Notes: a model not told the origin generated them from the letters alone. A DNA stretch of 51,822 bases from Candidatus Heimdallarchaeota archaeon (GCA_019057635.1 DXJL01000149.1:1-51822); one strand, 5' to 3'; positions 17,225 through 36,333 are shown, counted from the stretch's first letter. Numbers and translations are program-made.

Positions 17225-18850
17225 TTAAATGCTTTGTTTAAAAGTATCTATTATATGTCTTTGTGATTTAGAGAGATTATAATGGTCAAGAATAAACGCA
17301 TCCATTTGAGTTATTTCCTCATTTCCCAAACATATTTCTCTCTCTATCTTCATTTCTGCTATTTCTTGTTCCTCTAATGCAGAAAATGGTAATTTAATGG
17401 GAAGTTGCTTCAAATAGCTGATAGGTATTTTTGGAAATATTTTCTTTACTGTTTGAAACTTATGGTTAAGATAAAAAGTTAATAACGAAGAGTTTAGTAT
17501 GATTTCTAGATGTTTTAAATTGAAATGAGACCATTGTGGCTTGAAGGTAATTATGTACACATCGCACACACAAAATAGCATGGTTGGATCATAAACTGAT
17601 ATAAGTTCACGACCAATTCTTCGGAGGAGCAATTTTGGTTTCATATACATTGATTTGTCTTTGAAAATTGATTTTCTGTTCGAATCGAATTCAATATATC
17701 GCCTATCTCCTTTTATGGAAAATTTACTGATATTTCTCCCAGCTATCACTGGTACAGACTCCTGTGTAGAAGGTGTTTCGTTAGTGAAGGTTGACTTAAA
17801 TCCTAACTCGATTCCACGCGTAATAGATGCGATATCCTTTAGGAAAAGCGCTCCTGTTTCCATAATCTCAAGAATTTCAGTGATCTCTGTAGCCAGATCA
17901 GGTAAAATGTACCTGAACTTCTGATCCATAATCATTCTTTGGTCATTCATTTTAATCTGAGAGAATCCACCTTCAACTGAATACTTACTGAATTCAATGA
18001 TGTGGGAAAGACCCTTCTCGGCATCAGTTTTCTTATATCCCATTACAATGCATGTTTCAACAGATACTGAAGGAAATACATTGTCATCCAACATGATGAT
18101 TTTATTGATGTTGAGCTGATTGAGTAATAAATCCCTGAATGCTTGATATCGAAAGTTTGTAGTAAAGTTATTCGGAATAAGGAAGATTAACGCTCCTCCT
18201 TCTCGTAATAGATGTATTGACCGTTCAACAAATAGAAGATAACTTTCTATTTCGGGATCAACACCTTCAAAAATTCTTCTATAGATATTTTTCTCTTCAG
18301 AAGTAAATGAAATCCCAAAGGGGGGATTTCCTATACAAATATCATATCCCTCTTTAGTGTTAGGTGCGGACCATTCATAAAACCAATGAAACGCATTTTT
18401 AACTAAATTTATGTCTGGTTGATTAATGTTAAGATCATCGAAGAAATAACGAGTTAATTTTTCTTCTGTATAATAATTCTTCATGGTTTTAGGAGGTTTA
18501 ATATACCCAATTAACGCATTTCCAGTTTTAAACGAAATTTCAATATCCTTACTTGTCGCTAATTTCCTTTTTTTTGACTCACATAAATTAATAGATTCAT
18601 TATTTATATCTAAACCATGCAAAATTAGTTTAAAATTTATTAGATCACTTTCTCTGATGTTGTTCTTTTGTTTCAAAATTTCAAATAAAAATCTACCATC
18701 TCCAACTGAATTATCAAGGATGCTGATACTTCCAGAACCAAGTGGTTGGTTCAGAATGTCGTTAATAAAATCGAGAGAGAGATTGACCATTAATTTTACA
18801 ATTTTTTCTGGTGTTGGGATCGCTCCTAGTGGTTCTTTTCCTTTTTTCAC
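17225..18850 (-). CDS. N6-adenine DNA methyltransferase, TaqI/Eco57I-like (MTase B)
   Basis: A 541-residue class I SAM methyltransferase of the gamma N6-adenine type. Motif X is TPEKIVKLMV (13-22). The SAM-binding motif I reads LDNSVGDGRFL (D46 to G52), where most relatives have D-P-S-x-G-x-G. The catalytic motif IV is NPPF (175-178) in YDICIGNPPFGISF. A C-terminal target-recognition-like region contains GRNISKF, KLLLRRIG and the family phrase SSLLTFYLNHKFQTVKKIFPKIP. No endonuclease domain is present. It is the last gene of a minus-strand run, 5 bases after MTase A. The AT-rich, Ile/Asn/Lys-rich composition is higher than in metabolic genes nearby. The methylated site is unknown. Confidence 0.85.
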   Translation of the reverse strand: MKKGKEPLGAIPTPEKIVKLMVNLSLDFINDILNQPLGSGSISILDNSVGDGRFLFEILKQKNNIRESDLINFKLILHGLDINNESINLCESKKRKLATSKDIEISFKTGNALIGYIKPPKTMKNYYTEEKLTRYFFDDLNINQPDINLVKNAFHWFYEWSAPNTKEGYDICIGNPPFGISFTSEEKNIYRRIFEGVDPEIESYLLFVERSIHLLREGGALIFLIPNNFTTNFRYQAFRDLLLNQLNINKIIMLDDNVFPSVSVETCIVMGYKKTDAEKGLSHIIEFSKYSVEGGFSQIKMNDQRMIMDQKFRYILPDLATEITEILEIMETGALFLKDIASITRGIELGFKSTFTNETPSTQESVPVIAGRNISKFSIKGDRRYIEFDSNRKSIFKDKSMYMKPKLLLRRIGRELISVYDPTMLFCVCDVYIITFKPQWSHFNLKHLEIILNSSLLTFYLNHKFQTVKKIFPKIPISYLKQLPIKLPFSALEEQEIAEMKIEREICLGNEEITQMDAFILDHYNLSKSQRHIIDTFKQSI

Positions 18851-18855
18851 CTTCC

Positions 18856-20598
18856 TTATTCCCCCTGCAAAATTATCTGTTTTTCATTTTGAGATAATTC
18901 ATAAAAATTGAAAACAATTTCGTCAATAATGGACCTAACATAATACATCTTTGAATATTTACCATTTATCTCTTCGACGTAAGATTTATTGACTTTAATT
19001 CCTATTTTTTTTTCTAGCCATGGTAAGTCGTCTACATTTCTTGTTCGAAAAAACCTATCGAGCTGCTTTATTAACTTAAAGAGATTCCTTGTATGATTTT
19101 TTTGATTAAAGATTGACTGATTAACCATATTATCTAGTAGTTGTCTTAGCTCTTTCCCTTCCATAAGATACAATTTGAAGATTTCTCCAATCACGAAGAA
19201 TTGGTCTATGTTTGATTCCTGTTTTACAGTAGAACAAATATCAGAGAGCTGACCTATTTCTATCATATTCTTAATTTTGCTACGGAAGTCAGAATTCGAC
19301 TCACCATTCAAACGAGGAATTATCAATTTATTTAAATATGGTTTATCTAAATCTTTACTTGTTACAAATCGTTTAGTATATATTGCATGTTGTAACCACC
19401 AAGTTATAAACTTAGATTGAAGTAAAGCACCATATGCATGAATATAATTGGACGAGGAATAAGGAGGAATTATATTAATAACAGTTTCATGAGTAAGGTG
19501 GACACCAGAGGAATCAACCCAAATTGGAAGATCTAATTGGAATTTTGGTTTGGTTTTATAAGCAATTATGCGTTGTCCAATGATTTTAGGTTGCCTTAAT
19601 CTTTTAAACTTAATTTCAGGAACATTTTCAGTGACATAATTACGTTCTGGTAATAAAAACCCGTGTGTAAGCGAAACTTTTTCTATTAATGGAGTAGATA
19701 CGTCTTTTACACGAAATTGACTACTTAAACCACGAAAAGCAGTCCATTCAATTCTTCTGTGATCTTTCAGAAGCTTTTCCATTAGTTTCTGCTCTGAGGG
19801 AGTTACACCCACTAAAAAATTATCGAAACGAATCGCATTTTGAGTCTTAATCTTGGAGACGAAAACTAATTTCTCTTTCTCAGAATCCCATATCCCAGTT
19901 TGGAATTCTAAAGATGGAGAGATTTTTTGTAGTGTAAGGGCGACTTGCTCTTGCAATTGACCAGAAAATTGATTTGCTAAATCATATACTTCTAAAAGAC
20001 GAACCTGAGTTAGACATAGTTGTCGAAACATTTTCCATTTATTAGAGTAAATAAAAGGTTTAGGTAAAATAAAAGAAAGGATACCCCTGTCTTTTAAGAG
20101 GTTAATTGACTTCAGTACGAAATATAGAGCAGATTCTGACGGAATATTCTCCTGGGTTTCTTTGGGACGCAGCTTTCTTATTTTATCCCACTCTTGTGGA
20201 GAATATTTTGCATGGTGAGGAGGATTAGATATGATTAAATCGTATTTTCTTCCATTATTCTCTGTATCAAATTCAGTCAGAAAATTTTTGAGATGAAAAA
20301 CAACAGTACATGTATCATCATTTACAGAGTTAATCACTAATGATTTAGCTTTTGAGAGCGCAGAAGGGTCAATATCTAAAGCATCGATATTGATAGAACT
20401 AAATCTATTCTTTAATATCTGAATAAGTGTTTTGCAAAAAATTCCTTCTCCAGCTGATGGATCTAACACTAAGAGAGTATCATTATCTCTTGGTTCATCA
20501 AGATAATAGATAATGTTTCCAATTATTGCCTGTACAATGTTTTCAGGTGTAAAATATTGCCCTTTTTCACTCTGAGTACTTGACAAGCTGAGTCCCAA
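18856..20598 (-). CDS. N6-adenine DNA methyltransferase-like protein with NPPH motif (MTase A)
   Basis: A 580-residue TaqI-like methyltransferase. Motif X is GQYFTPENIVQAI (13-25), motif I is LDPSAGEGIF (D46 to G52), the acidic loop is DALDIDPSAL, and motif IV is SNPPHH with NPPH at 125-128. The usual aromatic fourth residue (Y, F or W), which stacks on the flipped adenine, is His here, so activity could be altered or lost. The C-terminal half holds TRD-like phrases (KPYLNKLIIPRLNG, SKFITWWLQHAIYTKRFV). The gap of 15 bases to the upstream CCA-kinase gene and 5 bases to MTase B indicate one operon. Two non-identical methyltransferases side by side could modify the two strands of an asymmetric site. 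Confidence 0.8.
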   Translation of the reverse strand: MGLSLSSTQSEKGQYFTPENIVQAIIGNIIYYLDEPRDNDTLLVLDPSAGEGIFCKTLIQILKNRFSSINIDALDIDPSALSKAKSLVINSVNDDTCTVVFHLKNFLTEFDTENNGRKYDLIISNPPHHAKYSPQEWDKIRKLRPKETQENIPSESALYFVLKSINLLKDRGILSFILPKPFIYSNKWKMFRQLCLTQVRLLEVYDLANQFSGQLQEQVALTLQKISPSLEFQTGIWDSEKEKLVFVSKIKTQNAIRFDNFLVGVTPSEQKLMEKLLKDHRRIEWTAFRGLSSQFRVKDVSTPLIEKVSLTHGFLLPERNYVTENVPEIKFKRLRQPKIIGQRIIAYKTKPKFQLDLPIWVDSSGVHLTHETVINIIPPYSSSNYIHAYGALLQSKFITWWLQHAIYTKRFVTSKDLDKPYLNKLIIPRLNGESNSDFRSKIKNMIEIGQLSDICSTVKQESNIDQFFVIGEIFKLYLMEGKELRQLLDNMVNQSIFNQKNHTRNLFKLIKQLDRFFRTRNVDDLPWLEKKIGIKVNKSYVEEINGKYSKMYYVRSIIDEIVFNFYELSQNEKQIILQGE

Positions 20599-20613: not shown

Positions 20614-22578
20614 CTAGGAGCTGAGATTTAACATAGCTTTAATTTTCTTCGCAGTGAAAGTCTTACCAGTAAGTACATTGCCACTCATTATAATAAGACG
20701 ATGTTTGTTTTTCCTTATTCTTAATAGTAAATCCTTCAGTATCTCATCGTAATCGTCTGATCTCGTGGATAACTCAACCACTTGACTACTACTAGGAACA
20801 CGAAGGGAATTCATATATGAATCTATTAAACTTTCATAACGGTTATAAATTATGATATCTGCATCACTTTTAGTAAGAGATTGCTCTTCTTGACTCCTAG
20901 CATCGAAATTCAATTTGAGATCAATTTTTGATGTACTAGTATGTAGGAATATTGGATTAAAAGCTCTAAATTTCTTAATTAATGTCTCCCTATGAGTTGG
21001 ATGTGATGGAGAGTTAAGATTAGTTCCGTCAAAAATCACAATATTGGATTTATTACGACGAAGAAGGCAAGATACCAGCCATATTGCGAGAAGATATGTA
21101 TGAGCACTTTCCCATGAAGAATAATCATGTAGATTTTCACGGTATAACTTTCGAACATGATCGGTTGAAATGATAGTAACCCTCGGACTTTTAGATGAGG
21201 TGCATAGGCTTAAAACTTTTTTAATATTGTCGAGAATTGTATATAGCTCTTTTTTAGAATTGAATGACGGTTTCACTTCCACTTGTTCTCGTAACAAATC
21301 CAAACAGATACCTATAAATTCACGTTGAGCAGATTTTGTTTTGTTAATATTTAAATGGGTAACGACCTCAGTTCCATCAATTTTTACATCCTTGAGATAA
21401 GTTGGTCTTTGGGATTCACTCCTTCTTCTTATATCAGCAAACAATGCATCATTAGGGAGGGGTTTGTTTCCAAGAATTTTCCCCTTAGCATGGTGAAATA
21501 GTAAGAAATCTTCAAGGAATTTAGGGGCAATGCCATAGAGTAACCGCCTTATCAAATAATTCTTGTATTCCTCCTTATTATCATCGAGAGAATATGGTAA
21601 AGGGATTTTATGAATTGATATTAGATGTATTATCTCATCTATGCGCTTGTTTGGAAATTTAAGCCTTTTGAGAATACGAGTTAAGAAATTTTTATTTAGA
21701 TCTGGAAGGAGGAAGGATGAATTAGAAGGGATGGCAGATAACTGATGAAAAAGAACAGAATATCGGAGATTTATTGATGATTCATTAGTTAAATCATCTA
21801 AAATACGCAAAGTAATCTCAAAACGAGATAAATTTATTGAAGGTAGAATATTCTGCATTAATTCATCTTTATATTCAGGTATTAGATGTTTCAGAAGATT
21901 GGTGGAATTTAGAGATCGAATTGCTTGCAGCCAATATAGCCCACCCATTAATTTATGAAATTCGGTTTCAATTCGCTCTTTTGAAATTTGGTCAAAGATG
22001 TGTAAATGCCTTGGTACCGCAGCAAGGGATGATTCCTCAACAGAATATCCTAATTGAGAAACAAATCTGAATATTCTGATTAATCTGAGGCCATCTTCCT
22101 CTAAACGAGCATCAGGGTCACCAACCAAACGTAAAATTTTATTAACAATATCAGAACGTCCATTGTAAGGATCTGTAAAAAATTCAGTAATGGGATCATA
22201 TGCAATTGCATTAATTGTGAGATCACGTCGAGCAAGATCCTCTTCAATATCAGTTACAAATTGAACATGGGATGGACGACGACCATCTTCATATTCCCCT
22301 TCGACCCGAAAAGTTGTAATCTCTATTGAAAGATTTTTAAATAGAAGAGTAACCGTTCCGTGTTGTATACCAGTTGGAATTACCTTGAATTTCTTAAATA
22401 ACTCCATAACTTCAGATGGAGATGCGTCTGTTGCAATATCCCAGTCATTTGGTTGAATTTCACCTCTTAGAAGATCACGAATTGACCCGCCAACAATAAA
22501 TGCCTTATATCCTACGGAAGAAAATTTGTGACAAACCTCAAGAATTTCTGCAGGAAAGTGACTTGCGGTGAATTCCAT
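20614..22578 (-). CDS. Class II CCA-adding enzyme fused to a circularly permuted PNK-like kinase
   Basis: A 654-residue two-part protein. Residues 1 to about 445 are a bacterial-type class II CCA-adding/poly(A) polymerase-like nucleotidyltransferase: GGSIRDLL (30-37), catalytic D45 and D47 in NDWDIAT, RRDLTINA (117-124), EDGLR (161-165), and a body/tail ending VKIDGTEVVTHLNINK to LLREQVEVKPSFNSKKEL. Residues about 465-654 carry the parts of a polynucleotide-kinase-like P-loop kinase in changed order: TIISTDHVRKLYRE (468-481), IVIFDGTNLN (513-522) with HRETLIKKF, PIFLHTSTS (542-550), then LIIMSGNVLTGKTFTAKKIK with the P-loop GNVLTGKT (633-640) only 14 residues from the end. All pieces are present, so permutation is more likely than truncation. 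It heads the operon with two methyltransferases. A role in tRNA or RNA 3'/5' end repair is inference. Confidence 0.8.
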   Translation of the reverse strand: MEFTASHFPAEILEVCHKFSSVGYKAFIVGGSIRDLLRGEIQPNDWDIATDASPSEVMELFKKFKVIPTGIQHGTVTLLFKNLSIEITTFRVEGEYEDGRRPSHVQFVTDIEEDLARRDLTINAIAYDPITEFFTDPYNGRSDIVNKILRLVGDPDARLEEDGLRLIRIFRFVSQLGYSVEESSLAAVPRHLHIFDQISKERIETEFHKLMGGLYWLQAIRSLNSTNLLKHLIPEYKDELMQNILPSINLSRFEITLRILDDLTNESSINLRYSVLFHQLSAIPSNSSFLLPDLNKNFLTRILKRLKFPNKRIDEIIHLISIHKIPLPYSLDDNKEEYKNYLIRRLLYGIAPKFLEDFLLFHHAKGKILGNKPLPNDALFADIRRRSESQRPTYLKDVKIDGTEVVTHLNINKTKSAQREFIGICLDLLREQVEVKPSFNSKKELYTILDNIKKVLSLCTSSKSPRVTIISTDHVRKLYRENLHDYSSWESAHTYLLAIWLVSCLLRRNKSNIVIFDGTNLNSPSHPTHRETLIKKFRAFNPIFLHTSTSKIDLKLNFDARSQEEQSLTKSDADIIIYNRYESLIDSYMNSLRVPSSSQVVELSTRSDDYDEILKDLLLRIRKNKHRLIIMSGNVLTGKTFTAKKIKAMLNLSS

Positions 22579-22675: not shown

Positions 22676-25297
22676 TTGCAACAGCTATCTCAAAACCTAA
22701 AAGAGCTTTATGTATTACTTCTTCAAGAAGGACGCTTCCTAAATTGGTCGGATGCAGTCACCTTTGAGGTAGCTTTAAATTCACTTATTAAATTCCTCTC
22801 CTTATTTTATTACCAACCATGGAACAAAATCGTAGAAGAGCCATTTTCTTCATTGAAAAAGACAGAAAAAAGGATGATTTTTCTCGAAAAATTTTTTCAT
22901 TCATTTGAGTATTCTGCAGGTGGAAATGAAAAGCAGGCTGTAGAGAAATCAATATTTTATCTATCAGCTCCTACACCGAAAGAAAAACAACTACTAAAAA
23001 GTATTCCAGGTGAAGATTGGAATCAAGTGATTAATCTTCTAGAGACTTATACATTCAACTCTGTGGAAAAATTCCAAGAGTCTACTAACCAAGAGGGTGA
23101 AATAACCCCTGAATTTCTTTCATTCTTTGCAGAAATTGTCATAAATGAATTTGAAAAAGATTTTTCAGTTTCACCTAAAGTATCAAGTCGAAAAACAAAA
23201 GGAGTATACTATTCACCTTGGAAAATCATCAGAGAATTGGCCGATAATCTCATATCTGATGACAGAACTCAGGTAACGGTTTTAGACCCTAGTTGTGGGA
23301 CTGGTTCATTTTTACTTTATACGACAGAAAGAATTTATCAAAATCAACAGAAATACGAAGGCAATTATGAAGATAATCCATCAAACATCGTCAAAAACTT
23401 CATTTACGGTGTAGATAAATCAAGTTCGGGTATATTAGTTACAAAATTAAGATTACTTCTCTGGATTTTAGGTAAAGATCCCGAATCAAATTTAGATACT
23501 GAAACACATATTTTTTCAAATATTCGAGAGGGAAACTCACTTTTTGGCTTTATTAATGAAAAATTTAATCCGACTATTGATTTAATTAATTATTTATCCC
23601 AGAATATTCAGAAAATAGGGGTAAAGAGTTCCAAACTTGTTGAAATGGAAAAGTATCTGAATAAAGATTGGGTTATTTGCTGTGACATACTCAAATCTGT
23701 TTTAACAGAGAGAGATTTCGTAATTAGAGCAAATATCGATTCTTTAATGGAACAGGTAAATAAAGATCTTTCAAAGATATTTAATAATGCATACGTTCAA
23801 TTTTTATCAACCTTAACGAACCAAACTATGAATTTGAAGTCCCTATATAATACAAAAGTAACCCAACTTGAATTTTTTCATTGGGGATTGATGTTTCCCG
23901 AGATTCTGAGACAAGGTGGATTTGATATTTGCTTGGGTAATCCTCCATATGGTCGTTCAATCCTTTCAGTGACTGAGAAAAATATCTTGAAGGCGTCCTA
24001 CAGTTCATGTAAGGGCTCTAACGCGAAAAAAATTAGTTTAAATGCAGCTGGGGCATTTATTGAACGTTCAATAAAACTCCTTAAACCAGAAGGTCGTTTG
24101 GCATTTATTCTCCCATTTTCAATCCTTAGGGTTGAAGAATTTGAAAGAATTCGTGATTATATTCTAGAAAAAACCGTGATAGACGAAATTCACGATGAAT
24201 CTGCAGCATTTCAAACTGTAACACTAGAGATGTGTTCATTAATCTTAACCAAACAACAAAAAAACGACTATCCGATTTTTATTAAACCTAGAAAGGGTTT
24301 AAAACTAGTATCACAGGTAAATAAATCGGTTTTTATGAACTACAAACGGTTTATGATATATTATGACACAAATTGGCAGATAATTACTCGAAATGGGGAA
24401 TTTTCTCAAATAATGGGAGATTATGGAGTAGATCATAGGATTGTTAAGAAAGATTTGAAACGGAATTACACTCCTTCCATGGAATATGTAGTTCCTTTTC
24501 TTCATTCAGGAAGATGTGTCACTCGTTATGCACTGAATCCTAATTATTTTCATTGGTCAAAATCGAATCATAAGAATCCTAGATTTATCGACTATCTTGA
24601 GAAACCTAAACTTGTTTGTACTGCAATTGGTAACGAGTTTCGGGTAGCTTACAAACCTAGGGGAATCGTACCAGGAACAAATGTCTCAATAATGGAAATT
24701 TCAAACCCTCAACATGATTTCTTTCCTCTAATGATTATACTCAATTCTTCTCTAATTAATTATTTATTAAAACGATATATATTGAATTATTCTCATCTAA
24801 CGGTCTATCTACACAAATATTATACACAATTAATACCAATAAAATATCCATGGTCTTATGAAAAGGAATGGAGAATAATTGGGACCTATATATCCTTGTT
24901 GAATCAGATACAACAATTGAACCTTGGACTCTCCTACCAGAAAGAATTGAAATTTTTGGGAGAAATTACAGAGCACATGGTTTACCATTTATATCTTCCA
25001 GAAATTTATACAGATTCAAAATTGACGTTAACATCCATACTTCAGGATTCCCTTCTTGAAATCCAATTTGAGGATTGTATTGAGGCACTCTTATCCCCAA
25101 CTAGCGATATTGAGGAGATTATAAAGGAAAAAAATTCTGATGTAATGATAGCTGAAGCAAGAATACTGGCTGTCATTAGTACATTGAAAACTGAATCAAT
25201 TCTTAATATCCTCTCTCAATCCAAGCAACTAAGAGAAAAATCGGGAATAACGAAAAAAATACTCCTTGATACAACACCAAAGATGATTCGAACATAA
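22676..25297 (+). CDS. Large N6-adenine DNA methyltransferase, Eco57I/PglX-like (MTase C)
   Basis: An 873-residue methyltransferase starting at TTG (22676); no in-frame ATG lies near, and the first internal Met is about 60 residues in. The N-terminal 165 residues are of unknown fold. Then come motif X GVYYSPWKIIREL (about 182), motif I LDPSCGTGSFLL (D204 to G210), an acidic GVDKSSSGILV loop and motif IV FDICLGNPPYGRS (NPPY 422-425). A TRD region includes LHSGRCVTRY, KLVCTAIGNEFRVAYKPRG, ILNSSLINYLL and HLTVYLHKYYTQLIPIKYP. I see no PD-(D/E)xK or HNH nuclease, so it is not a standard type IIG enzyme. It is divergent from the CCA-kinase gene across 97 bases and probably belongs to the same module. 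Confidence 0.85.
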   Translation: MQQLSQNLKELYVLLLQEGRFLNWSDAVTFEVALNSLIKFLSLFYYQPWNKIVEEPFSSLKKTEKRMIFLEKFFHSFEYSAGGNEKQAVEKSIFYLSAPTPKEKQLLKSIPGEDWNQVINLLETYTFNSVEKFQESTNQEGEITPEFLSFFAEIVINEFEKDFSVSPKVSSRKTKGVYYSPWKIIRELADNLISDDRTQVTVLDPSCGTGSFLLYTTERIYQNQQKYEGNYEDNPSNIVKNFIYGVDKSSSGILVTKLRLLLWILGKDPESNLDTETHIFSNIREGNSLFGFINEKFNPTIDLINYLSQNIQKIGVKSSKLVEMEKYLNKDWVICCDILKSVLTERDFVIRANIDSLMEQVNKDLSKIFNNAYVQFLSTLTNQTMNLKSLYNTKVTQLEFFHWGLMFPEILRQGGFDICLGNPPYGRSILSVTEKNILKASYSSCKGSNAKKISLNAAGAFIERSIKLLKPEGRLAFILPFSILRVEEFERIRDYILEKTVIDEIHDESAAFQTVTLEMCSLILTKQQKNDYPIFIKPRKGLKLVSQVNKSVFMNYKRFMIYYDTNWQIITRNGEFSQIMGDYGVDHRIVKKDLKRNYTPSMEYVVPFLHSGRCVTRYALNPNYFHWSKSNHKNPRFIDYLEKPKLVCTAIGNEFRVAYKPRGIVPGTNVSIMEISNPQHDFFPLMIILNSSLINYLLKRYILNYSHLTVYLHKYYTQLIPIKYPWSYEKEWRIIGTYISLLNQIQQLNLGLSYQKELKFLGEITEHMVYHLYLPEIYTDSKLTLTSILQDSLLEIQFEDCIEALLSPTSDIEEIIKEKNSDVMIAEARILAVISTLKTESILNILSQSKQLREKSGITKKILLDTTPKMIRT

Positions 25298-29118: not shown

Positions 29119-29760
29119 GTGATTGCATTGAATGATGAAATTAATTTAAAGGAACTAGAGCAAAAAACATTTAATGAATTTATGATTGATGGAATTACGG
29201 AACTTTTAGCTGGCTTTGTATTATTATTTTCCCCGATACTTATCTTGAATCCGATTTTTGTTGTTTTCGTTCCCTTTCTCCTTTTTCTTAGTCCACAGGC
29301 TATTGAATATATTAGGCAGCGAACAACTTATCCTCGCATTGGTAGAGTGGAGTTTAAAGATCAAGAAAAGATAGAGAATTATTCTATGAAGACATCTCTT
29401 CGAGATGTGCTCATTCTTCTCCTAGTTGCAGTGATTCTTACTTTTACTTTTATGATGGTATTTGAAGGAACGATTCTTGATATTTCCTTATGGTACTCAT
29501 GGGTACCCTGTATGTTTGGCTTAATCATGTTTGGCCCGAGTTTATTCCTTGTAGAGAAAACAGGTCAAAGATATTACTACGTTTTCGGAATATTTTCCTC
29601 CCTCCTAGGATTAGGAATTTCGACACTTGACTTCCCGAATATTTTTGATGGTATGTATTTGTACTTCTTTACTCTCGGATTATTGGTATCAGCATTAGGC
29701 GTAATTAGGTATATCTGGTTTATCCGAAATTATCCTGTTATTGTTCTTGAGGAGGATTAA
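29119..29760 (+). CDS. Four-to-five-pass membrane protein, unknown
   Basis: A 213-residue protein starting at GTG (29119). After an acidic N terminus come hydrophobic segments near LLAGFVLLFSPILILNP, FVVFVPFLLFLSP, VLILLLVAVILTFTFMMVF, WVPCMFGLIMFGPSLFLV, YVFGIFSSLLGLGIS and LYFFTLGLLVSALGVIRYI. The last residues are acidic (VLEED). No family is recognised. It stops 2 bases before the start of the winged-helix regulator at 29763, so the two are co-transcribed. A membrane protein paired with an HTH_34-type regulator is a recurrent prokaryotic arrangement in which the regulator controls the operon. Confidence 0.65.
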   Translation: MIALNDEINLKELEQKTFNEFMIDGITELLAGFVLLFSPILILNPIFVVFVPFLLFLSPQAIEYIRQRTTYPRIGRVEFKDQEKIENYSMKTSLRDVLILLLVAVILTFTFMMVFEGTILDISLWYSWVPCMFGLIMFGPSLFLVEKTGQRYYYVFGIFSSLLGLGISTLDFPNIFDGMYLYFFTLGLLVSALGVIRYIWFIRNYPVIVLEED

Positions 29761-29762
29761 TT

Positions 29763-30083
29763 TTGGAAGAGCATCAAGGTATTGCAGATGATTTTCCATT
29801 TAATACAGATATTGATAAGGTTATCCATGTGCCCTCACGACTTATTATCTTATCTTATTTATATGTTGTTAAAAACGCCGATTTAATATTCTTCAGGAGA
29901 AAGACACAGCTTTCTTGGGGTAATCTTTCTACCCATGCCTCCAAACTAGAAGCAGCGGGATACATCAAGATAACAAAAAGTTTTCGAGAAAAAAAGCCTA
30001 CTACTATCTTAGAAATTACGCAAAATGGAATATCGGCCTTTGAAAAATATAAAAGCATGATGCAAGGAGTTTTAGGGGATTAA
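29763..30083 (+). CDS. Winged-helix transcriptional regulator (HTH_34 / MarR-ArsR-like)
   Basis: A 106-residue DNA-binding protein starting at TTG. The core reads PSRLIILSYLYVVKNADLIF, then WGNLSTHASKLEAAGYIKI (the recognition helix L-S-x-H-x-x-x-L-E-x-A-G-Y-I) and a wing PTTILEITQNGISAFEKY. This L-S-x-H-x-x-x-L-x-x-x-G-Y pattern is the HTH_34 signature. No metal or ligand residues are obvious. It is translated 2 bases after the membrane protein gene. It probably binds the CTTTGTAT-N14-ATACAAAG repeat at 29038-29067 as a dimer; that link is inference. Confidence 0.75.
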   Translation: MEEHQGIADDFPFNTDIDKVIHVPSRLIILSYLYVVKNADLIFFRRKTQLSWGNLSTHASKLEAAGYIKITKSFREKKPTTILEITQNGISAFEKYKSMMQGVLGD

Positions 30084-30098
30084 AGACTAGGTTTGATC

Positions 30099-30905
30099 TT
30101 AATAAAAACCCTCAATGAACGCTCGAACGTTTTTTCCTAACACAGTATGATTATATCCCCCTTCCAGACAGGCAAATCGTCTGTTTTTTCCATAGTCCTC
30201 ACTGAATGACTTCAATAATGTACCTATTGATCGATAGTCCTTTGTTGTGAGGAGCCCCCCCCAATCATCTTCATGTCGGTCAAATCCTGCGGATACGGCC
30301 AAAAAATCCACTTTCCTATGTTGTGCAAGGAAATCTATTAAATTTGAGAGGAATTCTTCAGATGTATTTCCATCACAGGCATAATAAGTGACAAGAGGAT
30401 CGTTTCTAAATATATTATTTGAGCCATCACCAAAATGAAGGTCAAAATCTACTATCAAAGCATTTTGTATTTGCTTGTGCATGCAATAATATCTAACAGC
30501 AATAGCAATATTATTGAAGTAGCAGAACCCCCAATAACCATCAGGAGACGCATGGTGACCTGGAGGACGAATTACAGCAAACATGGGTTGCTGATTGTAC
30601 GCATTTTCCGCAGCTAATAATGCTCCCCCTACAGCCAATAAAGCACTTTGATAAATTTGGTCGTAGTCATTTTGTACACGAGTTGCGTGGTCTTCTGTAT
30701 GGACGAGTAGGACATCTTCTATTGTAGCAGGAGAAGGAGATATAACTGAAAAATCTGATAATTCATTCATAATCGCCTCCATTCGACCAGGTTCTGCAGC
30801 GGGATCAAAAGTGTATTCCAAATAGTAATCTTCATGAAAAATGACTTGTTTATGTATATCCTTTCTTCTTTTTAGCATTAATTTGGCTGAGTTGGGAGTA
30901 ATCAT
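30099..30905 (-). CDS. HDAC-fold deacetylase / acetylpolyamine amidohydrolase family
   Basis: A 268-residue zinc hydrolase of the arginase/deacetylase fold from an ATG at 30905, which overlaps the upstream methyltransferase stop as ATGA. A start at 30929 (Met, 8 residues longer) is possible but deepens the overlap. Motifs: RPPGHHA (catalytic His pair), DFDLHFGDG (D and H zinc ligands kept; the second His of the usual HHG is Phe), SAGFDRHEDD (third ligand Asp) and LEGGYN. Family members deacetylate lysine, polyamines or acetoin-like substrates. Its translational coupling to a DNA methyltransferase suggests a shared task, but the substrate is unknown. Confidence 0.85.
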   Translation of the reverse strand: MITPNSAKLMLKRRKDIHKQVIFHEDYYLEYTFDPAAEPGRMEAIMNELSDFSVISPSPATIEDVLLVHTEDHATRVQNDYDQIYQSALLAVGGALLAAENAYNQQPMFAVIRPPGHHASPDGYWGFCYFNNIAIAVRYYCMHKQIQNALIVDFDLHFGDGSNNIFRNDPLVTYYACDGNTSEEFLSNLIDFLAQHRKVDFLAVSAGFDRHEDDWGGLLTTKDYRSIGTLLKSFSEDYGKNRRFACLEGGYNHTVLGKNVRAFIEGFY

Positions 30906-33247
30906 AATATTGGTTTTCCTAGACGCCATTCAACCTCAAATTTGATTGATTGTTGAATCTGATCCATAAAGTGTGGAGATAATCCCAAATAATCAACGCA
31001 AAGAAGTTGATCCAATTTCATTTGGATTTTCAGATATTTAGTCTTTTCTCCAATTTTTGGAATGTGTAATTCAATTAATTCTTGGAGACATTCTTTTATT
31101 TGGTGTATGGTAGTGTCTGGCATCTGTCTTGGATCAAGTACAAGTAAATTTTGGCATTCACTTAGCGACAACTTCAATGAGCCTAATCCTAAAGTTCTTG
31201 TTCCTTGAATTTCACGTAACAATACACCTAATGATGAATTCATGAATCCAAGTAAAAATTCAGTCCAAACAGGGCTATCTGGCCAAAATCCTATCCATTG
31301 TTTGTCTACATGTAACTCTTGCGTATTATAAGCAACAAATGAACGCAAATAAGTCATATTTGGAATAAGAATTTCTGGTTGAATTTTTGAGATACAATAC
31401 CAAGTTGATTTGCTTTTATTTAGGAAATATGGTCTGGAGAGAATATCATTTTTGATACTATCTAAATAATGCTGTAAATGAACGTCTTTCTCAATGTTGA
31501 TCTCAGGTGGAATAGACAACAGGTATAACGATTTCTGAGGAGCAATTATACTTAAGCTGATAAAGTCTTTTGGTGATTTAGTCATAGAAACTAAGTGTTT
31601 TTGAGAAAGACTAAATTTTTGTACCATATCTTCAGATAAATAGAAATATCTATTAGCTCCAGTTGTAGAACCTAAAGAAAGTTTCCCTAGGTGGTTCAAT
31701 AGACAGAATTTGTCTTTATTGGCTAAAAGAATATGATGGAGAAAGAAGGGGGCCATGGTAAAATAATCAATTCTCATTATTGGAAATCGGTATGTGTTAT
31801 CTCGAGAAAATAAGAGATGGGAATTTGTAATTCGACTCATTCGATATTCATTATTTTCAAAAGATTCGATATTTATATCCTTTAATTGAGTTGAACGTAA
31901 TTGTTCCACAGAATCAATATATTCAGACAATGGTTCGTCGATCTTTAACAATTCAGACAATTTTTTCTTCCAGACTAACACTGTAGTAGAATTTACTTCA
32001 TCAAAATGTTCAACCTTATGTCCAATAATAATATTCGTTATAATTTCTGCTTTTTTCCATGGCTCTGAAGGAAGCTCAAGAATTAAATCAATGTTAAAGT
32101 ATTTTTCAAGGAGAAGGGAATTTATAGGAGATAGGAATCGTGAAGAATACCAAGATCGTGATAAAACTAATCCTAATACTCCGTTTGGGTTAAGCTTAAA
32201 CATCAACATTATCCAAAAGTAAAAATAAAGATCTGCTTTCGAATCAACTTGCTGATTACTTCCTGAAAAGATTGATTGATATTCTGGAATAGTAACAAGT
32301 TTTGCAATAATTTTCTTCTTATCTATATTATGATGACGAATATAAGGAGGATTACCAAGACACAAATCAAATTTTAGATTGCTTGGCTCTTCTATAAGCA
32401 GAAAATTCTCTTTTTTAATATTTACAATTGATTCTACAAAGTTTTTCATCTCTCCAACAGAAATTGATTCATAAGATACAACTTTTGTTATCCAGTGATG
32501 TAGAAAAACTAATTTTGTTAAAATAACATGAGTAGGATCAATATCAAAACCATATAAATTGGAGAGAAATTTCTGGAAATATTGCTGGTATTCGTAATTG
32601 GAAATCGAATTCTTAATCTTGAAGATTATGGTGCTATAAATTTCTATTATTTCATGCAAAAATAACCCAGTGCCGCAGCTTGGATCAATTATAGACGTAG
32701 ATGACAACTGGTTTACAAAAGTTTTGTAAATATCTTGGTTCTCTTGTGAAATTTTTCCCTGAAAGATAATTCGATGTATTAAAGATTGATCAATTACTAA
32801 AGCATTATTGAGCATCAAGTACTTGTATAGACTGAAGTAACAGATGAACTGAACCTGATTTTGTGGGGTAAAGAATAAACCTGTATTTTTTTTCTTCTGG
32901 GTTCGTGTTAACGTTTCATAGAGATAGGAGAGTCGATAAATATCAATTCCTTCCTTACTTACTCCGTGAATGACCTCCCACCACCAATATGTCTCCTTTA
33001 GGTAATCAATAATAAGAGTATTTTCCTTTACAGCTAAAGAATCGAATATGAATCTCATTCTAGGTAGCGATTTCCCATTAGATAACATATTTATAAAAGA
33101 AGTTTTATCAGGAGTATCATTTAGCTCTGAAATGGGGAAAACATAATAAAATGTAAAGACACATCTGAAAAACGGGAGTAGGTCTGGATATTTAATAGAT
33201 TCTTTTTCCAGACGTTCCAAAAATTCCTGAAGTAATAAGTCCATCAA
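30902..33247 (-). CDS. N6-adenine DNA methyltransferase, Eco57I/PglX-like (MTase D)
   Basis: A 781-residue methyltransferase. Residues 1-125 are helical and end in YRLSYLYETLTRTQKKK, the helix that precedes motif X in the Eco57I/PglX group. Motif X is TGLFFTPQNQVQF, motif I is IDPSCGTGLFL (D188 to G194), the acidic loop is FDIDPTHVILTKL, and motif IV is FDLCLGNPPYIRH (NPPY 299-302). A C-terminal target-recognition part contains LSLGSTTGANRYFYLS and a segment ending GFMNSSLGVLLREIQGTRTLG. No nuclease motif is visible. It overlaps the deacetylase gene by 4 bases and diverges from the radical SAM gene across about 220 bases. It is not a close copy of MTases A-C. Confidence 0.85.
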   Translation of the reverse strand: MMDLLLQEFLERLEKESIKYPDLLPFFRCVFTFYYVFPISELNDTPDKTSFINMLSNGKSLPRMRFIFDSLAVKENTLIIDYLKETYWWWEVIHGVSKEGIDIYRLSYLYETLTRTQKKKNTGLFFTPQNQVQFICYFSLYKYLMLNNALVIDQSLIHRIIFQGKISQENQDIYKTFVNQLSSTSIIDPSCGTGLFLHEIIEIYSTIIFKIKNSISNYEYQQYFQKFLSNLYGFDIDPTHVILTKLVFLHHWITKVVSYESISVGEMKNFVESIVNIKKENFLLIEEPSNLKFDLCLGNPPYIRHHNIDKKKIIAKLVTIPEYQSIFSGSNQQVDSKADLYFYFWIMLMFKLNPNGVLGLVLSRSWYSSRFLSPINSLLLEKYFNIDLILELPSEPWKKAEIITNIIIGHKVEHFDEVNSTTVLVWKKKLSELLKIDEPLSEYIDSVEQLRSTQLKDINIESFENNEYRMSRITNSHLLFSRDNTYRFPIMRIDYFTMAPFFLHHILLANKDKFCLLNHLGKLSLGSTTGANRYFYLSEDMVQKFSLSQKHLVSMTKSPKDFISLSIIAPQKSLYLLSIPPEINIEKDVHLQHYLDSIKNDILSRPYFLNKSKSTWYCISKIQPEILIPNMTYLRSFVAYNTQELHVDKQWIGFWPDSPVWTEFLLGFMNSSLGVLLREIQGTRTLGLGSLKLSLSECQNLLVLDPRQMPDTTIHQIKECLQELIELHIPKIGEKTKYLKIQMKLDQLLCVDYLGLSPHFMDQIQQSIKFEVEWRLGKPIL

Positions 33248-33275
33248 TTTACCCTTTTATAGACTAATAACAACT

Positions 33276-33322
33276 AAATCGATTTTTATCACATACATAA
33301 GATGAGGTGTATTCATCGATTT
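33276..33322. promoter_or_regulatory. Inverted repeat in the divergent MTase D / radical SAM intergenic region
   Basis: AAATCGAT (33276-33283) and ATCGATTT (33315-33322) are exact inverted copies 31 bases apart, within the gap between two divergent genes. They could bind a regulator that acts on both promoters. An 8-base match is possible by chance in a gap of this length, so confidence is low. Confidence 0.25.
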
Positions 33323-33468
33323 AACTACAAGTTTTATTCTCTTCTTTATATACGAATGGTATCAATTTTAATCCTCTCACCCTAAAAAAGAATAAAAATC
33401 TTGATGGATAGTAATTTACTGTAAAGGAACGATTCAATGAAAAGAACTATAGAAGGGTGATACACAAG

Positions 33469-34047
33469 ATGAAAATATCATCTATCATACCCATTTCTGA
33501 AGTTAATGGTCCAGGACCACATTACACGGTATGGGTTCAAAGATGCACGTTAAAATGTCCAGATTGTTTCAATCCCCATACGCATGACCTAACTTCAGGA
33601 ATGGAAAAGAAATTATCACATTTACTCCAAGACATTAAGAATTATTGGTTGAAGAAACAAATAATCGGTGTAACATTGACAGGAGGGGAACCTTTTCAAC
33701 AAATTAATGAGGTTATCCAGCTTACTAAACCCATTAAATCACAAACTAGCTTGGGAATAATTATTTTAACTGGTTACAGCCCTAAAGAGCTAATCCGACT
33801 CCCAAGTATTAAATCAGTTACAGAAAATATTGACCTAATTATTGCAGGACGATATCGTAGAGAATTTAAGATCCAATCAGGTTTGAGGGGCTCCAGTAAC
33901 AAAAATTACCTTTACTATTCAGATTTCTATAAGAAATTCGTTTTAGACGAAATTCCACTGATGGAAGTCATTACAAATGAGGTCGGTGAAATAATTATAT
34001 CTGGAATTGAGCCAGACATTTTACTTGATACAATAAACCCCGAATAA
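33469..34047 (+). CDS. NrdG-like radical SAM / 4Fe-4S protein
   Basis: A 192-residue protein from ATG 33469, chosen because AAGGGTGAT lies a few bases before it (GTG at 33457 would add four residues). The cluster motif is RCTLKCPDC (C-x3-C-x2-C), following GPGPHYTVWVQ, and LTGGEPFQQ is the glycine-rich SAM motif. IILTGYSPKEL and DLIIAGRYRREF are also of the NrdG/pyruvate-formate-lyase activase type. The known role of NrdG is to make a glycyl radical on the class III ribonucleotide reductase, but no such partner is in the window and this subfamily often stands without NrdD. It is divergent from MTase D, so a link is possible but unproven. Confidence 0.8.
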   Translation: MKISSIIPISEVNGPGPHYTVWVQRCTLKCPDCFNPHTHDLTSGMEKKLSHLLQDIKNYWLKKQIIGVTLTGGEPFQQINEVIQLTKPIKSQTSLGIIILTGYSPKELIRLPSIKSVTENIDLIIAGRYRREFKIQSGLRGSSNKNYLYYSDFYKKFVLDEIPLMEVITNEVGEIIISGIEPDILLDTINPE

Positions 34048-35444: not shown

Positions 35445-36200
35445 TCATTTGTTACATACAAATATCATATCTGTTGAGGAATCCCCATCATAAGAATCCT
35501 TGTTATAACTCCCATACACTTCAATATTTTTGAATTGAGTTACTTCCAATAATTCTTTCATTTTATTTACAGTTATACGGGGAATATTAGCTTTACCAGT
35601 TGTCACCAATTCGTAATCGAAAACCTCAGATTTTCGAAATAGAGTGACTATTTCTGGATGGATGAAGTTCTCATCGGTAGAAAATCCACGTAGAAAGACA
35701 TATTCACCATTTGGAGTACGAACACTTCGAGGCGGTGACCAGCCATTACGTTCTTTCATGGTATTTAATATTTGGAATATCAAAATCCCTCTCGGTTTAA
35801 GATGTTGATAAAGTTTGGCTATAACAGGTTTAAACGAAGCAGGTGAAGAAGCAATTAATCCAATTGAATTTCCTAGGCTATAGATAGCGTCAAATGACCT
35901 TTTTGACAATAAATTAGGATCTAGAAAATTCCCTACAATGAATTCAGCTTCAGGAACCCTTTTTTTTGCTTCCTTGATCATGGTGGGATCGAGATCTATT
36001 CCTGTTAAGGAACATTGAAAATTTTGGTTCAATTCTTTCAGATGTCGCCCAGTGCCGCAACCAACAGAGAAGATGGAACTTCTAGCTGATATTTGCTTAG
36101 AAAAAAAACTAGAAAGAAATGGAATCTCGCGAGCTAACCTTTTTTCCCAATTAATTAGTAAATCGTAATGGTTCCCACCAGATAGAAGTGAATTACTCAT
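35445..36200 (-). CDS. Class I SAM-dependent methyltransferase
   Basis: A 251-residue methyltransferase from ATG 36200. I prefer this to 36227 because the AAAGGAAG ribosome site is placed correctly before it. Motif I is IFSVGCGTGRHLKEL, with an acidic loop GIDLDPTMIKEAKKRV and the GNFLD/DAIYSLGNSIGL motifs of the glycine N-methyltransferase-like or Trm/UbiE-like class. The C-terminal half contains a beta-rich part (YVFLRGFSTDENF, FDYELVTTGKANIP). The acceptor cannot be stated; small molecules, RNA and lipids are all possible in this group. It is a stand-alone gene. Confidence 0.8.
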   Translation of the reverse strand: MSNSLLSGGNHYDLLINWEKRLAREIPFLSSFFSKQISARSSIFSVGCGTGRHLKELNQNFQCSLTGIDLDPTMIKEAKKRVPEAEFIVGNFLDPNLLSKRSFDAIYSLGNSIGLIASSPASFKPVIAKLYQHLKPRGILIFQILNTMKERNGWSPPRSVRTPNGEYVFLRGFSTDENFIHPEIVTLFRKSEVFDYELVTTGKANIPRITVNKMKELLEVTQFKNIEVYGSYNKDSYDGDSSTDMIFVCNK

Positions 36201-36333
36201 AATTAACTTCCTTTCAGCAATCATCAAATAATATTATTCTTCGACAAAATACAAATTAGTCCAATCAGGGAATAAAAATGTATATTCTCCTACTGCATTT
36301 CTTATCGCAGATACCATTCCTCTGTAAAAAGAA

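Follow-up and report, generated by a model that had tools for sequence, protein, structure and literature searches.

A putative operon pairing a CamA-like DNA methyltransferase with a short HDAC-fold deacetylase in Hodarchaeales

Gene organization at the locus

The window, the whole 51,822-nucleotide stretch of DNA that we analyzed, is a single contig of a Hodarchaeales (Asgard) genome. Two adjoining genes on its minus strand are the subject of this report: one at 30902-33244, encoding a predicted solitary gamma-class (Eco57I/CamA-like) N6-adenine DNA methyltransferase of 780 aa (MTase D), and one at 30099-30905, encoding a predicted short HDAC-fold zinc deacetylase. Both open reading frames lie where the original prediction had placed them, and the four-base overlap that it proposed can be read directly: the TGA stop codon of MTase D (30904-30902) and an in-frame deacetylase ATG (30905-30903) share an ATGA at 30902-30905 on the minus strand, an arrangement that predicts translational coupling. 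The deacetylase frame stays open to a further ATG at 30929, from which a longer protein would overlap MTase D by 28 bp. We prefer the start at 30905 because the alternative ATG arises from conserved Glu-Trp codons of MTase D. The methionine at 30905 (MITP/MISP) is kept in G000, G001, G011, G002, and G010, and the C-terminal residues of the methyltransferase vary there. For MTase D itself, the ATG at 33244 is most likely the true start, rather than a TTG at 33247 that would yield 781 aa, since a matching ATG begins the orthologue of G010, a genus-level relative.

As had been noted, a NrdG-like radical SAM gene (33457-34047) is divergent from MTase D across the intergenic region that the two share. 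It adjoins the pair only in a five-genome subclade, and we rejected it as a third member of the unit. The inverted repeat described in the same intergenic region (AAATCGAT; arms at 33276-33283 and 33315-33322) likewise exists and lacks conservation: the nearest relative, G001, has AAATTGAT in place of one arm, and neither G002 nor G010 keeps that arm. The repeat is therefore best treated as chance, and we rejected it as a regulatory element.

The Eco57I-family methyltransferases of the window number four (17225-18850, 18856-20598, 22676-25297, and the MTase D frame counted from its TTG, 30902-33247). The first two stand in tandem (17225-20598); the first carries NPPF with the motif I sequence DNSVGDG, and the second an unusual motif IV, NPPH, with DPSAGEG. 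A heterodimer or a division of labor is possible. Among the methyltransferase genes lies a 654-aa ORF (20614-22578) that appears by eye to fuse a CCA-adding/poly(A) polymerase to a kinase-like P-loop C terminus; a PADLOC search of this ORF returned no match. Convergent to the deacetylase are a membrane protein gene and an HTH_34 winged-helix gene (29119-30083), an arrangement also found beside a phylogenetically separate Thorarchaeota deacetylase (L178, L184, L191, and L192).

Predicted activities of the two proteins

MTase D matches the Pfam Eco57I family above the cut-off (2.3e-16) and carries motif I (DPSCGTG) at residue 188 and motif IV (NPPY) at residue 299, in the numbering of the 781-aa ORF. 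The pattern DPSxGxG and the NPPY motif are kept in all nine MTase D orthologues. Its AlphaFold2 model (pLDDT 79, pTM 0.79) finds its best structural match in CamA from Clostridioides difficile (PMC8187626), an orphan DNA adenine methyltransferase, with Z 26.5 over 528 aligned residues that span model residues 100-756. Aligned in this way, the model consists of a Rossmann methyltransferase core followed by a C-terminal target-recognition domain. The two proteins are alike in being gamma-class NPPY adenine methyltransferases with a C-terminal recognition region and no recognized nuclease, CamA as a known orphan enzyme and MTase D as a predicted one. They differ in that MTase D is about 200 residues longer, has an extra N-terminal helical domain, is only ~21% identical to CamA, and is followed by a deacetylase gene. 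The N-terminal ~125 residues are modeled as an all-helical bundle, and HsdM, MmeI, and BrxX can be aligned to the N-terminal helical part.

No nuclease domain was recognized in MTase D, and none was identified among the neighbors searched with profiles. Given the intact gamma-class motifs, the CamA-like fold, and this result, MTase D looks like an orphan, restriction-free m6A DNA methyltransferase. Its C-terminal specificity region (residues 481-720) shows conservation equal to or greater than that of the catalytic core, as would suit a predicted orphan enzyme that recognizes a fixed site, unlike the diversifying specificity of restriction-modification systems. Such conservation is not peculiar to MTase D; MTase C and distant methyltransferases of a sister family show it as well.

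The downstream protein matches Pfam PF00850 (4.6e-43) in two stretches, corresponding to profile positions 5-170 and 217-296, with positions 171-216 unmatched. Between the matched parts HDAC6 is longer by about 39 residues, and the window protein is without a loop of ~35 residues. Its active site is intact: the HH dyad, the D-x-H...D zinc ligands, the GFC motif, and the EGGY tyrosine are all present, and H125, H126, F135 (of GFC), D163, H165, D217, and Y259 are invariant in 58 homologues. The model is confident (pLDDT 91.5), with residues 1-21 of low confidence, and the structures closest to it are those of bacterial HDAC-like enzymes and of HDAC10/HDAC6 (Z 31-35), among them 5ji5 (Z 35.1 over 250 residues). 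With class II and HdaH-type enzymes (HDAC6, HDAC10, bacterial HdaH, 5ji5) it shares the fold (Z 32-35, rmsd 1.5-1.8) along with the dyad, the zinc ligands, GFC, and EGGY, whereas its core is limited to ~250 residues and the segment from the D-x-H strand to the AGFD strand is about 35-40 residues shorter.

The deacetylase carries the RPPGHH and EGGY motifs, which have been tied to acetyl preference (Graf et al. 2024, PMC11532494). At the position of the HDAC10 PEG gatekeeper, a manual alignment anchored on zinc ligand D217 places WGG, in contrast to the PEG, PKG, or PIS of class II and HdaH-type enzymes. By this alignment the protein has no HDAC10-type Glu gatekeeper (the PEG motif as defined in PMC11532494), and the PIS motif of acetylpolyamine amidohydrolase (ApaH, cluster 4 of the same study) is also absent. 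We infer a zinc-dependent lysine deacetylase of a short class II/HdaH-like subfamily, for no member of which we found a solved structure.

This short subfamily is spread across archaea and anaerobic bacteria, including Archaeoglobus, Lokiarchaeota, Thorarchaeota, Deltaproteobacteria, and Desulfotomaculales. Its members are 45-62% identical to the window protein over the whole length and share its loop deletion and invariant active site. In the loci examined outside the pair, none has a DNA methyltransferase as neighbor; the genes alongside are unrelated housekeeping genes, such as those for an epimerase, an ABC-2 permease, and NUDIX and TANGO2 proteins. Because the subfamily is widespread without a methyltransferase, its deacetylase activity would need no such partner. 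In the deacetylase tree, the copies that belong to the pair group together in a single clade (support 100/99), which is sister to Archaeoglobus (94/81) and stands apart from the Lokiarchaeota and Thorarchaeota copies. The tree thus speaks against co-inheritance with a Thorarchaeota/Lokiarchaeota copy, an origin considered on account of the shared downstream HTH_34 genes and rejected. A widespread enzyme type with a single pair-bearing clade suggests that an older, free-living deacetylase probably became linked to an orphan methyltransferase once.

Distribution and conservation of the gene pair

Among 56 genomes of the class, counting full-length MTase D orthologues and deacetylase orthologues, the same nine genomes contain both genes; in each of the nine, the two lie side by side, share a strand, and follow one fixed order. 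No genome of the 56 has one gene without the other, and 47 have neither. Recurrence of the pair had been proposed as a check, with unlinked or separated genes in relatives as grounds for refutation; no relative within the class has the two genes unlinked or separated. Methyltransferase identity among the pair-bearing genomes falls as low as 36-39%, and deacetylase identity is at least 60%. The adjacency is kept in all eight relatives of the window's pair, even as flanking genes differ among the divergent G003, G006, G008, and G023. The adjacency is found wherever the genes are, which is more than chance.

The junction itself varies. It is ATGA in G000, G001, G011, and G002, TAATGA in G010, and an overlap in G023; G006 and G008 have a gap of about 12-17 nt with a Shine-Dalgarno-like sequence, and G003 a gap of ~45 nt. 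The chromosomal locus is common to the genus, with a SAM-dependent methyltransferase gene resembling that at window positions 35445-36227 nearby in many genomes. In G009, a complete, single-contig genome, the same locus holds a stand-alone 140-residue ORF (L231 8295-8717, minus strand) whose first ~95 residues match the MTase D N terminus, and the short deacetylase is absent: where the first gene is broken, the second is missing. We read this ORF as a remnant of the pair, of which the rest was lost, and a single deletion may account for the joint loss.

The nine pairs all come from one clade, mostly from metagenome bins, and their co-occurrence is not phylogenetically independent; descent from one clade means that the linkage represents few independent events. 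The genome G023 is from a different family. Its copy falls inside the Hodarchaeales clade and lies on a contig (C335, 6 kb) that bears syntenic Hodarchaeales genes; the methyltransferase type of its own family is present in the bin as well. This combination suggests that the contig is misbinned or transferred, and we therefore count eight genomes as secure. Outside the pair-bearing group, the distant methyltransferase homologues of a sister family (25% identity) lack a deacetylase. The linkage first seen in the window thus holds in all nine genomes and does not extend to these homologues or to the wider deacetylase subfamily; in general, therefore, neither protein requires the other.

Possible roles of the pair

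We tentatively favor, at somewhat less than an even chance, a two-gene Hodarchaeales operon, methyltransferase first and deacetylase second, whose products would be co-translated and would act as one regulatory unit on DNA and chromatin. MTase D, as a CamA-like orphan N6-adenine methyltransferase, would mark a fixed DNA motif, and the deacetylase would deacetylate lysines on a protein associated with DNA, candidates being a histone tail, another chromatin protein, or MTase D itself. Both enzymes would plausibly act on the same chromatin. DNA methylation and acetylation would then be adjusted together, rather than for antiviral restriction. Co-expression of the genes, DNA as the methyltransferase substrate, lysine as the deacetylase substrate, and joint regulation of chromatin are each presumed in this proposal.

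The genomic setting offers candidate substrates. The genome of the window, G000, has around ten histone-fold matches, and one of its histones (G000:C116:3403-3675 = L219 1489-1761, minus strand) has an N-terminal tail rich in lysine (MAKKKVVKKPAKKAAPAKKSSSG...). For Heimdallarchaeota LC_3, modification of such tails has been proposed (Henneman et al. 2018, PMC6136690). The tail has close matches in G007, which has no pair, and in five of the pair-bearing genomes; it was not detected in the pair-bearing G003 and G008. This imperfect co-occurrence does not support the histone tail as sole substrate. Of the link between DNA modification and acetylation state that was originally suggested, a DNA-binding protein as substrate is thus possible, and a strict match between tail and pair is not seen. 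G000 also has two further HDAC-family genes, which could serve chromatin instead. The Eco57I family is greatly expanded in most of the sampled Hodarchaeales genomes, with 9-24 strong matches (12 in G000); G004, G005, and G007 have 2-6, and the remaining genomes of the class 0-8.

It is nearly as likely that a housekeeping deacetylase with no functional tie to the methyltransferase is simply inherited along with it. A general-purpose deacetylase might have been captured downstream of an orphan methyltransferase in a Hodarchaeales ancestor, with the order merely inherited and the deacetylase perhaps reliant on the upstream promoter and on ribosome coupling; we consider this a serious possibility, at roughly a third of our expectation. 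The wide occurrence of the subfamily beside unrelated housekeeping genes, the restriction of the pair to one clade and one shared chromosomal neighborhood, and the retention of further adjacencies of the region among close relatives would all be expected from it. It accounts less well for an order kept down to 36% methyltransferase identity despite turnover of flanking genes, and kept also where the genes do not overlap, so that coupling would not force it.

We also considered two further readings. The deacetylase might act on a small molecule, such as an acetylpolyamine, an acetylated nucleotide, or a modified base, in which case methylation would be linked with polyamine or nucleotide status only indirectly. 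HDAC10 and acetylpolyamine amidohydrolases are among its structural neighbors, the missing pocket loop means that its specificity may be unusual, and some bacterial polyamine deacetylases are likewise without the Glu gatekeeper (PMC11532494). However, the residue at the HDAC10 Glu position is an invariant glycine (G224) in 58 homologues, and no polyamine or nucleotide-modification enzyme is encoded near the pair; we regard this reading as unlikely. An antiviral role in restriction or BREX/MADS-like defense is less likely still. MTase D weakly matches the PADLOC type II, IIG, mad2, and PglX models, structurally resembles BrxX, and shares the window with three other methyltransferases, but its NCBIfam mad2 and PglX matches fall far below cut-off, its C-terminal region is conserved, and its neighborhood is conserved across the genus. 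With no nuclease domain recognized in MTase D and no known defense partner identified among the neighbors, we did not adopt the restriction-modification and defense reading. Viral contigs yielded no MTase D relative and one partial deacetylase match, and a viral origin was rejected as well.

The regulatory-unit reading has a stronger form, which we think improbable as a whole: a single translationally coupled operon would write adenine methylation and histone-type deacetylation in a histone-bearing Asgard lineage that has a lysine-tailed histone, through recruitment of an Archaeoglobus-like deacetylase to an orphan CamA-like methyltransferase, as a prokaryotic counterpart of the eukaryotic DNA methyltransferase/histone deacetylase partnership. 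A literature search of limited, open-access scope returned nothing relevant on Hodarchaeales DNA methylation or on operons joining a deacetylase to a methyltransferase. Both enzymes are of known kinds; within that literature, we found no report of a conserved operon in which a DNA methyltransferase is joined with an HDAC-fold deacetylase. The pair sits in eukaryote-related archaea whose genomes encode numerous histone-fold proteins, one or more histones with a lysine tail, and unusually many Eco57I-type DNA methyltransferases. A predicted methylation motif and the deacetylase are two handles on whether chromatin methylation and acetylation are coordinated in Asgard archaea, and the link that we infer between the two marks thereby becomes testable in relatives of eukaryotes.
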